Assembly: GCA_026710435.1 (NCBI GenBank)
Contig: JAPOQZ010000013.1
Location: 1-64,000 of the forward strand
Direction: 5' to 3'
Source of the DNA: a bacterium
GTDB taxonomy: Bacteria > Actinomycetota > Acidimicrobiia > Spongiisociales > Spongiisociaceae
Length of the DNA stretch: 64,000 nt
Made by a program: the position numbers and the translations under genes. This document shows positions 1-54,152 of this stretch, one piece after another (the stretch's first letter is position 1; each line of letters begins with the position of its first letter). Under the pieces are notes generated by a model, which was not told the DNA's origin, searched no databases, and saw only the letters and a program-made list of their open reading frames with translations.

Positions 1-1834
1 CCTAGGAGGGTGGTGTTTTTCGCGGGGGTTGGTAGAGTTACAGGAGTGTAGTTCGGGGGTGTGGCTGTGAGTTTGGGTGTGTCGCCGGTTCAGGCAGATT
101 TGTTGAGGGGTACGGGGTTTGTGGCTGATCGGGTGGGGGATGATTCTGTGTTTTCGGTTCTGTTTCGGTCGGGTCATCGTCTGTTTGCTGATGAGTTGTT
201 CTCGGATTTGTTCGCTCTGGGGGGCCGCAGGAGTGTCCCGCCTCGGATTGTGGCGACGGTGATGGTGTTGCAGCGTTGGTTTGGTTTGTCTGATCGGGAG
301 GCGGTGGCGGCGTTCGAGTTTGATATGCGGTGGAAGTATGCGTGTGGGGGGTTGGAGTTCGATTATGGGGGGTTCTGTCATACGGTGTTGGTGGGTATGA
401 GGGCTCGTTTGGCGGCTTCTGAGCAGCCGCGGCGGGTTTTCGACGCGACGCTGGAAGCGGCCCGGGCGGTGGGTGTGGTGTCGGCTAGGAGGGTGTTGGA
501 CTCGACACCGATCTATGACGCGGTGGCTACCCAGGATACGGTGACGATGGTTCGGGGCGCGATTCGGGGGTTGTTGGGAGCGGCGGACGCGGTTCTGGAG
601 GCGGAGCTGCGGGCGGTGTTGGGCCGTGACGATGACTACGCGGTGGGCGGCAAGGGGGTTTGCGATTGGGGGGATCAGGTAGCGCGAGAGGAGTTGGTGG
701 CGGCTCTGGCGGCTGATGGGTTCGGCTGTTTGGATGTGTTGGAGGGTCGGGTCCTGGCCGATGCGTTGTCCGAAGCCGCCGAGTTGTTGGCCACGATCTT
801 GGGCCAGGACCTGGAGGAGGACGGCTCGGGTCGGTTCCGTATCGCTCGGCGGGTGGCCCCTGATCGTGTTATTTCCACTGTGGACACCGATGCTCGTCAC
901 GGACGTAAGACATCCGCTCGCCGTTTCGATGGTTACAAGGGTCACATCGCGGTGGATCCTGATTCTGAGATCATCGTTGATACTTCTGTCACCGCCGCGA
1001 ACGTCGCCGACAGCGAAGCCGCCGCCAGCCTCATCAGCGACCTCCTACCCAAAACCAACAACACCACCACCGACCCCGACACTGGCAGCACCGACACCGG
1101 CAACCACCCCGGCACCGGCAACCACCCCGGCACCGGTACCGACCCCGGCGCTGTGGAATATGAGAACGGACCGACTGTCTACGGCGACAGCGCCTACGGC
1201 AGCGGCGAGTTCCAACAACTCCTCTCCGAGAACGGGATCAACTCGGGATGCCGCAGCCCCGAACCCACCGCACGCCGGGGCCGGTTCAACAAAGACCGCT
1301 TCTGCGTCGATCTCGAGAACCGCACCGTCACCTGTCCCGCCGGAGTCACCGTCACCATCAAAACCAGCCGCGACAGCACCGGCCGCGCCAGCTTCGGTAC
1401 CGCCTGCACCGACTGCGACCTCCGAGAACAATGCACCACCGCCGCCGCCGGCAGAACCATCAGAGTGGGCAAACACGAAGCCGTACTCGCCAAAGCCCGC
1501 AAACGCCAGAAACCCCGCCGCTGGCAAAACGACTACAAGGCCACCCGCCCCAAAGTCGAACGAAAAATCGCCCACCTCATGCGACGACGACACGGCGGCC
1601 GCCGAGCCCGAATGCGCGGCGTCGCCAAAGTAGCCGCCGACTTCAGCCTGCTAGCCGCAGCAGCCAACATCGCACGCCTGGGAACACTCTGACCACACCC
1701 CGAACCACCCCGCCCAGCCCAAACCACCAACCCCCCCCCCAACCCGCCCCGGTGCCCCCCCAGAACCAATCCCCACCAGACCACACCCCCCGCACAAACC
1801 ACCCCAAACCCCCATTTCACACCAGTCTCCTAGG
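1..1834 (+). mobile_element. IS1182-type insertion sequence
   Basis: The element holds one transposase gene (61-1692) between imperfect inverted ends. The left end reads CCTAGGAGGGTGGTGT. The right end, read inward from 1834, gives CCTAGGAGACTGGTGT, so 14 of 16 bases match. If the outer CTAG on both sides is a target duplication, the ends proper are GAGGGTGGTGT and its partner. The left flank is cut by the window, so the exact border is uncertain. The left half (to about 990) is rich in G and T and the right half in A and C on this strand. Confidence 0.82.
61..1692 (+). CDS. IS1182 family transposase (DDE)
   Basis: The 543-residue product should cut and join the ends of the surrounding insertion sequence. 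The N-terminal part (residues 30-130) resembles the helix-rich transposase N domain of the IS1182/IS5-like group. The DDE core follows: DSTPIYDA near residue 147 and VYGDSAYG near 378 supply the aspartates, and the VERKIAHL stretch near 500 probably supplies the glutamate. A Cys cluster (CTDCDLREQC) near 438 is common in this family. Residues 340-365 hold a low-complexity TGNHPG repeat encoded by tandem 18-bp units at about 1096-1145. The start is GTG. The reading frame is intact, so the element may be active. Third codon positions favour G/T in the first half and C/A in the second, which is unlike the neighbours. Confidence 0.88.
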   Translation: MAVSLGVSPVQADLLRGTGFVADRVGDDSVFSVLFRSGHRLFADELFSDLFALGGRRSVPPRIVATVMVLQRWFGLSDREAVAAFEFDMRWKYACGGLEFDYGGFCHTVLVGMRARLAASEQPRRVFDATLEAARAVGVVSARRVLDSTPIYDAVATQDTVTMVRGAIRGLLGAADAVLEAELRAVLGRDDDYAVGGKGVCDWGDQVAREELVAALAADGFGCLDVLEGRVLADALSEAAELLATILGQDLEEDGSGRFRIARRVAPDRVISTVDTDARHGRKTSARRFDGYKGHIAVDPDSEIIVDTSVTAANVADSEAAASLISDLLPKTNNTTTDPDTGSTDTGNHPGTGNHPGTGTDPGAVEYENGPTVYGDSAYGSGEFQQLLSENGINSGCRSPEPTARRGRFNKDRFCVDLENRTVTCPAGVTVTIKTSRDSTGRASFGTACTDCDLREQCTTAAAGRTIRVGKHEAVLAKARKRQKPRRWQNDYKATRPKVERKIAHLMRRRHGGRRARMRGVAKVAADFSLLAAAANIARLGTL

Positions 1835-3354: not shown

Positions 3355-3461
3355 CTACGACGGTGCTGAACAATGACGATTGCTCGGGCCTGCCGCTCGG
3401 CGACCCAGGCATTTTGCCACCGATTCGCAGGCCGCTGGTGGATTGCTCAGCACCCTCCTAG
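3355..3461 (+). mobile_element. MITE-like palindromic element, copy A
   Basis: This copy of the 107-bp repeat (target bases included) begins CTACGACGGTGCTGAACAAT and ends ATTGCTCAGCACCCTCCTAG. It carries the conserved inner blocks GATTGCTCGGGCCTGCC and GCAGGCCGCTGGTGG. TA lies at both borders. It sits between convergent whiB and the DUF3107 gene, and its right border overlaps the DUF3107 stop codon. Confidence 0.85.
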
Positions 3462-4577: not shown

Positions 4578-4599
4578 CTAGGAGGGTACTGAGCAATCC
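4578..4599 (+). repeat. Solo end of the MITE-like element
   Basis: CTAGGAGGGTACTGAGCAAT followed by CC matches one terminal repeat of the ~107-bp element, but no matching opposite end follows directly. It is probably a remnant of a decayed copy or of an older element interrupted by copy B at 4722-4828. Confidence 0.6.
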
Positions 4600-4721: not shown

Positions 4722-4828
4722 CTAGGGGGGTGATGAGCAATCCACCAGCGGCCTGCCAACCGCCGACAGACTGCCTGGGTCGGCGGCCGGCAGGCCCGAG
4801 CAATCGTCATTGTTCAGCACCCTTCTAG
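4722..4828 (-). mobile_element. MITE-like palindromic element, copy B
   Basis: This 107-bp copy is inverted relative to copy A. It begins CTAGGGGGGTGATGAGCAAT, contains CCACCAGCGGCCTGCC and GGCAGGCCCGAGCAATC, and ends TTCAGCACCCTTCTAG. CTAG stands at both borders. It lies upstream of the tRNA-Arg region. Confidence 0.85.
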
Positions 4829-9456: not shown

Positions 9457-9564
9457 CCAGGAGGGTGCTGACCAATGCCGATTGCTCGGGCCTGCCGCCC
9501 GCCGACGCAGGAATCATGGCGGCGATTGGCCCGCCGCTGGTGGATTGCTCGGCACCCCTCCTAG
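9457..9564 (+). mobile_element. MITE-like palindromic element, copy C
   Basis: The copy begins CCAGGAGGGTGCTGACCAAT, continues GATTGCTCGGGCCTGCCG, and ends GGTGGATTGCTCGGCACCCCTCCTAG with a few substitutions relative to copies B and E. CA replaces TA at the left border, so this copy is probably older. It lies directly behind thrC and can fold into a long hairpin. Confidence 0.82.
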
Positions 9565-52503: not shown

Positions 52504-54152
52504 GTGAGGGGCTCTACGAGGACCGACACCGATGTCGTCATCGTGGGCGCCGGGCACAACGGGTTGGTGGCGGCGTTCTACCTGGCGCGCGCCGGGCTCC
52601 GAGTGCAGGTTCTCGAAGCGCGAAGCCTCGCGGGCGGCGCTCTCGCCACCGAGGAACTCATCGATGGGTTTCGCTTTTCGACGTGCGCCTTCCGGCTGTG
52701 GGGCCTGCAACGACCGGTGATCGAGGACATGGGCCTCGCCGGACGTGTCACCGTCCGCAAGCCCGAGCCGACCGTGCTGCGGCTCTATCCCGACGGCCGC
52801 GCCCTCAAACAGTGGAGTGACCTGCGCCGCACCGCCGCCGAACTCGAGTCCTTCTCCCCGGGGTCGTCGGCTCGTCTGGCGGACTGGTCGGCATTGTGGG
52901 AACGGGCGGGTGCGCTCTACGAGCCGTTCGTGTTGCGTGAACCTCCAGCCGAATCGGAGCTGCGTGCTCGATCTGCCCTAGGAGGGTGCTGAGCAATCCA
53001 CCAGCGGCCTGCAGACCGCCGGCATTATTCCTGGGCTGGCGGGCGGCAGGCCCGAGCAATCGTCATTGTTCAGCACCCTCCTACTGGGCGATCCCGACCT
53101 GTACGACACCCTGCGGACAGCAGACATGGCATCGCTCGTGCGGGATCACTTTGCCGACGAGGCCGTCCAGGGCGCCTATATCGCGGCGCCCGCCGATCCG
53201 CGGCAGCCCGGATCGCCGCTCGAGGCCGCGGTGGGCCTCGGTTCCACTGGAGCCGGACTGGGCCGGGCTTCCGGTCGGCGGCATGGGCGCCCTCGCTTCG
53301 GCGATGGCGGAGGCGGCATCCGGGGCAGGGGCGGAGATAACGACCGATGTGCCGGTGAGACGCATCCTGGTGGGCGATCAGGGAACGGCCGGGGTCGAGT
53401 TGGAGAATGGGAGCCGTCTCGATGCCGACATCGTGGTGTCCAACCTGAGTCCGCGGGCGACCTACACGCGGCTCGTCGACCCCGGTGTGTTGCGCCCGTC
53501 GTTTCTCGGCAGGGTGGAGGGGATCTCGAGCACGATCGGCTACCTCAAGCTGCACGCGGGCCTTCGAGAACCGATGGACCTCTCACGCTATCTGGGTCCG
53601 GACCATGATCCGATGGCGGGGTCGTACATGAGGATCACCCGGTCGATCGACCACTACATCTCGGCCTGGGAAGACTGTGCCGCCGGCCGACCGGCGAGGG
53701 ACCCCGTCATCCAACTGGGTACGCACACCGCGCTCGACCCGGCCAGCGCGCCACCGGGGGGTCACGCGGTGTCGGCCCTCGTCCTGTATGCACCACCGGT
53801 CCCCAAGAGCGGAAAGTGGAGCGATCTCCGCACCTCCGTCGCGGAAGACCTGATCGACCGGATCACCGAGTACGTGCCCAATTTCCGGAGGGCCCTCGTC
53901 GAGTACGTCCTCTTCACGCCGACCGACCTGGAGCACCGGCTGGGCATGCTGGGTGGGGACATTCATCACGGTGACCATCTGCCCGGCCAGTTCTTCACCG
54001 GACGACCGTTCCCTGACTCGGCCGGATGGCGGAGCCCGATCGCCGGGCTGTACCTATGCGGCGCCGGAACGCATCCCGGTGGGGAGGTGACCGGCGCACC
54101 CGGCTACAACTGCGCGGCGGCGATCCTGGCCGATCAGCTAGCTAGCTGCTAA
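52504..54152 (+). pseudogene. FAD oxidoreductase (phytoene desaturase/PYROXD2-like), interrupted by mobile repeat
   Basis: The gene encodes an NAD(P)/FAD-binding amine-oxidase-type protein: VIVGAGHNGLVAAFYLARAG with the GxGxxG fold at the start, GGMGALASAMAEAASGAG in the middle, and SPIAGLYLCGAGTHPGGEVTGAPGYNCAAAIL at the end. Repeat copy E inserts at 52978 and brings a stop in frame. Removing 103 bp (element and one target copy) joins RARSAL to LGDPDLYDTL in one frame, so the insertion is precise. A second shift lies near 53235-53255, before GGMGAL. The protein is therefore not made in full, unless one of these is an assembly error. Confidence 0.85.
52978..53084 (-). mobile_element. MITE-like palindromic element, copy E (in a gene)
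   Basis: This copy begins CTAGGAGGGTGCTGAGCAAT and ends TTCAGCACCCTCCTAC. Inner blocks are CCACCAGCGGCCTGC and GGCAGGCCCGAGCAATC. The 17-bp terminal repeats differ at one base, so this copy looks young. TA at 52979-52980 and 53082-53083 (or CTAG/CTAC) are the target duplication. It encodes no protein. Confidence 0.88.

Follow-up and report, generated by a model that had tools for sequence, protein, structure and literature searches.

Which transposase spread the small inverted-repeat elements that lie scattered along this stretch of bacterial DNA? The window, the whole stretch of 64,000 nucleotides analysed here (G000:C243:1-64000), begins with an intact IS and contains several copies of a short element, termed MITE-1, whose ends resemble those of the IS. 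An earlier note on this DNA had offered two readings of that resemblance, namely that the IS transposase could mobilise the small elements or that these may derive from a related IS. The ends, the phylogeny and the relative age of the elements are considered in turn below.

The IS element and its target

The IS spans positions 2-1833 on the forward strand, giving a total of 1832 bp when the flanking CTAGs (2-5 and 1830-1833) are counted, and contains a single ORF. This ORF (61-1692, forward strand) encodes an intact transposase of 543 amino acids in which DUF772, DDE_Tnp_1 and DDE_Tnp_1_6 (Pfam) all score above cut-off, candidate DDE motifs (LDST, GDSAYG and VERKI) are present and internal stops are absent. 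Members of the IS1182 family are typically ca. 1.3-2.0 kb in length with a single ORF, and we take the element to belong to this family. The left tip, GAGGGTGGTGT (6-16, forward strand), and the right tip, GAGACTGGTGT (1819-1829, read inward on the reverse strand), form inverted repeats matching at 9 of 11 positions. With the flanking target included, the left end reads CTAGGAGGGTGGTG (2-15, forward strand) and the right end, read inward, CTAGGAGACTGGTG (1820-1833, reverse strand). The transposase has relatives (n = 35) with identity of up to 75% in the best segment, and the palindromic CTAG flanks both sides of the window IS and of most relatives. A look-alike of the end within the transposase gene, CTAGGAGGGTGTTG (485-498, forward strand), encodes the ARRVLDST motif of the family and is probably a coincidence.

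The element is an intact, recently duplicated member of what is described below as clade A. As the contig starts at its left end (C243:1), this copy comes without a left flank; in the MAG as a whole, left flanks of the IS are present on C4 and C262 and right flanks on C243 and C106. These flanks, two on either side, are consistent with two near-identical copies, a near-identity to be read in the light of the 141-bp identity at contig ends, which may partly be assembly overlap.

CTAG is under-represented in the window by ca. 3.5-fold (60 observed against 211 expected). Every insertion at CTAG leaves two CTAGs, and elements therefore accumulate side by side. On C4, the left end of the IS and a complete 106-bp MITE have one CTAG in common; this IS copy inserted into the terminal CTAG of a MITE already present, and the neighbouring hairpin MITE is intact. 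A repeat of ca. 345 bp, with ends of CTAG followed by TGTCC, also piles up beside other elements at CTAG. The taste for CTAG is common to the window IS and the MITEs, and the same target is used by unrelated elements in this genome.

MITE-1 copies in the window and in the genome

The MITE-1 end, CTAGGAGGGTGCTG, is found at 3448-3461 (reverse strand) and 52978-52991 (forward strand), with near copies at 3355, 4578, 4722, 4815, 9457 and 53071. With up to two mismatches allowed, the window holds 12 such ends where 0.83 would be expected. Across the whole MAG (4.9 Mb), a search with at most one mismatch returned 579 ends, against 12 for a reversed control pattern, which corresponds to roughly 280 copies of an element of ca. 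107 bp. Copies in the window are located at 3355-3461 (107 bp, reverse strand, left end decayed to CTACGACGG), 4722-4828 (107 bp, forward strand), 9457-9564 (108 bp, reverse strand, left outer bases CCAG) and 52978-53084 (forward strand), the last lying in a conserved reading frame, with CTAG on its left and CTAC on its right and with an empty site in three relatives. A lone MITE-type end, CTAGGAGGGTACTG (4578-4591, forward strand), has no recognisable partner. The gene around the 52978-53084 copy (L268-L270) is 91-93% identical to genomes of genus g4, unusually high across genera, for which recent transfer or strong conservation are possible explanations.

The elements have the properties that define a MITE, being short (mostly 106-108 bp), non-coding, present in high copy number and bounded by terminal inverted repeats, the two ends reading CTAG followed by GAGGGTGCTGAGCAATCC and CTAG followed by GAGGGTGCTGAACAATGACG. 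Each forms one long hairpin, and the consensus folded as RNA reaches −74.6 kcal/mol. MITE statistics here and below derive from 60-79 sampled copies.

How far the ends agree

The single difference in 14 bases between the left end of the IS (CTAGGAGGGTGGTG) and the MITE end (CTAGGAGGGTGCTG), reported in the earlier note, was confirmed (13/14), as was the presence of CTAG, described there as CTAG-like targets, at the ends of both elements. The right end of the IS matches at only 11/14. Beyond base 14 the match ceases, with TTTTTCGC and TGAAATGG in the IS against AGCAATCC and AACAATGACG in the MITE. As the CTAG target itself accounts for 4 of the 14 bases and the right end agrees so much less well, it might be argued that the likeness is chance combined with a common target. 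Against this, 9 of the 10 non-target bases match at the left end and, over the 16 positions that follow CTAG, the window IS matches the MITE at 9 on the left and 11 on the right, scores obtained by random 16-mers in 1% and 0.04% of trials, respectively. IS1182 tips in general also have GnGnnTGnTG in common, and homology of tips across the family explains the likeness better, leaving chance exceedingly improbable. The likeness is real and family-deep, consisting of a family-level tip motif plus the common CTAG target. The window IS left tip and the MITE additionally both contain GAGGGTG, which is missing from other clade-A elements, a point that counts against the explanation favoured below.

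MITE-1 does not appear to be a shortened form of the window IS. BLAST of the MITE-1 consensus gave no match to the window IS, and tip and subterminal sequences show no match beyond 14 bp. The deletion derivatives of the IS envisaged in the earlier note did not materialise either, as a DNA search of the genome with the whole IS returned the IS junctions and weak matches.

Transposase clades and relics of clade B

Ends of IS1182-family elements were taken from public genomes and from the same order, whose IS1182 transposases form two supported clades with different tips. In a maximum-likelihood tree, clade B comprises L141, L134, L136, L137, L243, L245 and a relic in G001 (support 98/98), and the window IS falls apart from it in clade A; L247, L250 and L251 sit on long branches and their placement is unsure. 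Clade B tips contain TGCTGA or TGTTGA (TGCTGAGCAAT), and clade A tips TGGTGT, or TGCTGT in Ferrithrix. Elements near the window IS end in CTAG followed by GTGGCTGGTGTTTTTCG or similar, and ends of same-order elements read CTAG followed by GAGACTGCTGAGCAATTC, CTAG followed by GAGTCTGCTGAGCAATCG and the like. Over the 16 bp after CTAG, clade B tips match the MITE at 12.3 positions on average and clade A tips at 8.2 (Mann-Whitney p = 5e-8), with family relics at 13-14. The intact clade-B elements L141 and L134 reach 14/16. Among the intact clade-B transposases none was found with exactly GAGGGTGCTGA tips, all differing at no fewer than 2 of 16 bases.

Closer matches are found on decayed elements. 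A search with a clade-B profile recovered decayed transposase pieces in genomes of the same bacterial family. In G011:C88 (L258), a C-terminal relic is followed by a C-rich stretch and then by the exact 15-bp MITE tip, the outer end of which lies 56 bp past the last transposase homology. Intact clade-B elements have a similar C-rich stretch, with a distance from stop codon to end of 123-169 bp. No MITE interior lies between this relic and the tip, and the tip is thus an IS end and not part of a neighbouring MITE. The exact same tip is carried by G008:C31 and by an apparently orthologous relic in G010:C22, while within the same genus the relics G001:C14 and C26 end in CTAG followed by GAGCCTGCTGAGCARTGGGGGT, C14 with one further change. 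A BLAST search with the MITE consensus as query matched ends of relics at 17/17 and 16/16. By chance, a correctly oriented exact tip would lie within 120 bp of a relic with a probability of ca. 2e-4 per genome, a figure to be read with the caveat that the relics may not be independent. These identical tips on clade-B relics of the same family lend good support to one reading of the earlier note, namely that a related IS gave rise to the MITEs.

Several other candidates were discarded. The remaining DDE_Tnp_1 transposases of this genome and of other genomes of its family (f1) have no MITE-like tips, and a G008:C48 end pair matching at 11/14 failed on inspection. Single MITE-type ends in f1 genomes are mostly decayed MITEs, the one in G010:C22 (L107) being the clade-B relic end.

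In this MAG, the clade-B profile (E ≤ 0.01) matched only the window IS, and the assembly yielded no autonomous clade-B partner with ends of CTAG followed by GAGGGTGCTGARCAAT; completeness of the MAG is 95%, and the assembly may lack multicopy elements. As far as found, the autonomous clade-B element persists in the family only as decayed relics. A transposase other than that of the window IS with the full 17-bp MITE ends, the observation named in the earlier note as refuting its proposal, was not found in this MAG and was found, in decayed form, in sister genomes.

Taken with the clade-A position of the window IS, these observations make it very probable that the MITEs are non-autonomous derivatives of clade-B IS1182 elements, presumably mobilised in trans by a transposase of that clade, of which this bacterial family has, as far as found, only relics. 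The ends of such elements may be summarised as CTAG followed by GAGnnTGCTGARCAAT. The clade-B transposase would have bound the MITE tips of ca. 15-20 bp, inserted the MITEs at CTAG and amplified them in trans.

Distribution and relative age

Of 14 f1 relatives, 12 contain the 15-bp MITE tip in exact form (all but G003 and G005), with 1-18 matches each, the 18 being in G001 of the same genus; this genome has 269. Across genera of f1 (G001-G014, e.g. L106-L132), the same 15-bp tips enclose unrelated interiors, yet the length stays at ca. 106-118 bp. The window transposase is absent from all 14 f1 relatives searched at E 1e-20.

These counts bear on the other reading of the earlier note, in which the small elements are cross-mobilised by the transposase of the window IS, of clade A. 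Within f1, the clade-A IS and a large MITE burst are each confined to this species (269 exact 15-mers, with 0-18 in other f1 genomes), which speaks for such cross-mobilisation, and the 13/14 identity of the left end, the use of CTAG by both elements and the 14/14 agreement of a second MITE family with the IS left end (see below) point the same way. However, the tips differ at position 12 and in everything beyond position 14, tip sequence follows transposase clade, and relatives that lack the IS have identical MITE ends. Age argues in the same direction. MITE-1 copies differ from their consensus by a mean of 5%; the nearest neighbour of a copy lies at a median distance of 2.8%, and 2 of 76 copies are identical to another. 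The sample was partly picked by similarity or intact ends, and the divergence is, if anything, underestimated. The IS copies, on the other hand, are near-identical and collapse to one sequence in the assembly, and are therefore probably younger than the MITE copies; one of them is inserted beside a pre-existing MITE, as described above for C4. Cross-mobilisation by the window IS thus appears unlikely, and the corresponding suggestion of the earlier note is not upheld: the IS belongs to a different clade and has different tips, it is lacking in relatives that bear MITEs, and it is seemingly younger. The window IS is probably a cousin of the MITE parent and not what spread the MITEs.

Target duplication and the alternative of an IS630/Tc1 origin

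Insertion sites provide a further view of the mechanism. Where the CTAG at the ends of 79 MITE-like copies deviates at a single base, it does so 19, 11, 4 and 2 times at positions 1, 2, 3 and 4, whereas equal decay of a 4-bp duplication would predict ca. 9 per position. The empty sites of the 52978 copy in three relatives, within the conserved reading frame, read CTGC, CGAT and CTTC. None has G at position 4, and hence the terminal G most likely belongs to the element. Judged from this one locus and the statistical pattern, MITE insertion likely duplicates TA within a preferred CTAG context, and a 4-base CTAG duplication is disfavoured by the graded deviations. The empty site of L007 is CTAG in relatives and fits TA and CTAG alike. 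IS1182-family elements have been published with 4-bp or no duplications (PMC3281130, PMC3852290, PMC5678879).

TA duplication with a preference for CTAG would also be expected if the MITEs were elements of IS630/Tc1 type, and the graded deviations, the empty sites together with the CTAC on the right of the 52978 copy, in which the G is probably the element's own, and the presence of an IS630 remnant in the genome can all be read in that sense. Such an origin is nevertheless highly improbable, since the IS630 ends of this genome differ (CTAG followed by TGTCCTGTGTTGGG), the elements with PF13358 in the searched genomes have other ends, none with MITE-like tips (GGAGGGTGCTGA), and the exact tips are found on clade-B IS1182 relics.

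Further elements at CTAG

A second family of 107 bp, MITE-2, has ca. 17 clear copies (G000 L298-L312, e.g. C51:23840-23946). Its left tip is identical to the left end of the IS at 14/14 bases and continues with GGAAAC where the IS has TTTTTC, and its right tip, GGGGGTGGATGG, does not fit clade A. MITE-2 is the strongest candidate left for mobilisation by the window IS. It is conceivable, if doubtful, that after the loss of the cognate clade-B transposase an incoming clade-A transposase took over at least one orphan MITE family, MITE-2, and that MITEs switch transposase as their tips drift.

The ca. 345-bp repeat is found in hybrid form at three loci (G000 L019, C18:1838; L179, C43:1-335; L182, C48:36150), where a MITE tip (CTAGGAGGGTGCTG) is joined to the interior of the repeat. 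Two of the three have the same junction with different flanks, which suggests that the hybrid moved. The IS630-family transposase remnant lies at a contig end (G000:C16:1-440; L165, L187), and its end resembles those of the ca. 345-bp repeat, of which, on this resemblance, it is probably the mobiliser. In the sister species, IS elements of 835-885 bp with ends of CTAG followed by GGCGTGTTCAC (G001:C71, C88 and C5; L231-L233) constitute another CTAG-targeting family.

Comparison with known systems

A short match between ends can mislead: a resident IS can look like the source of a MITE that probably came from a sister lineage now decayed. The present case is also one of a large burst of IS1182-type MITEs in an actinobacterial order, in which co-varying transposase clades and tips could be used for testing the bases that determine IS1182 specificity. 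RUP of Streptococcus pneumoniae, a MITE of ca. 107 bp with a TA target, is likewise regarded as mobilised in trans by an IS, although RUP is tied to an IS630-type element and not, unlike MITE-1, to IS1182.

Within the IS1182 family, ISPse1 of Paracoccus is an IS of 1653 bp with 16-bp inverted repeats for which a 4-bp direct repeat is reported (PMC3281130), whereas the MITE data here favour a TA core within CTAG. IS1272 belongs to the same transposase family as the window IS, with members reported at palindromic targets, and replaces stem-loops without target duplication (PMC5678879, PMC4923244), whereas the elements described here lie between two CTAGs and the hairpin MITE adjacent to the IS is intact. 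A parallel in kind is provided by the MITEs of the archaeon Methanosarcina acetivorans and ISMac2, which are likewise short, non-coding and multicopy with terminal repeats matching an IS1182-family IS (PMC3852290). These measure 160 and 169 bp, occur in 7-14 copies and have inverted repeats of 25-26 bp and direct repeats of 4 or 0, whereas MITE-1 is ca. 107 bp long, numbers about 280 copies, has a common tip of ca. 15-20 bp and has its autonomous partner only as relics in sister species. MITEs of the IS1182 family are an already known kind (PMC3852290), the twist here being that the likely parent is found in decayed form and that the IS in plain view is probably another element.
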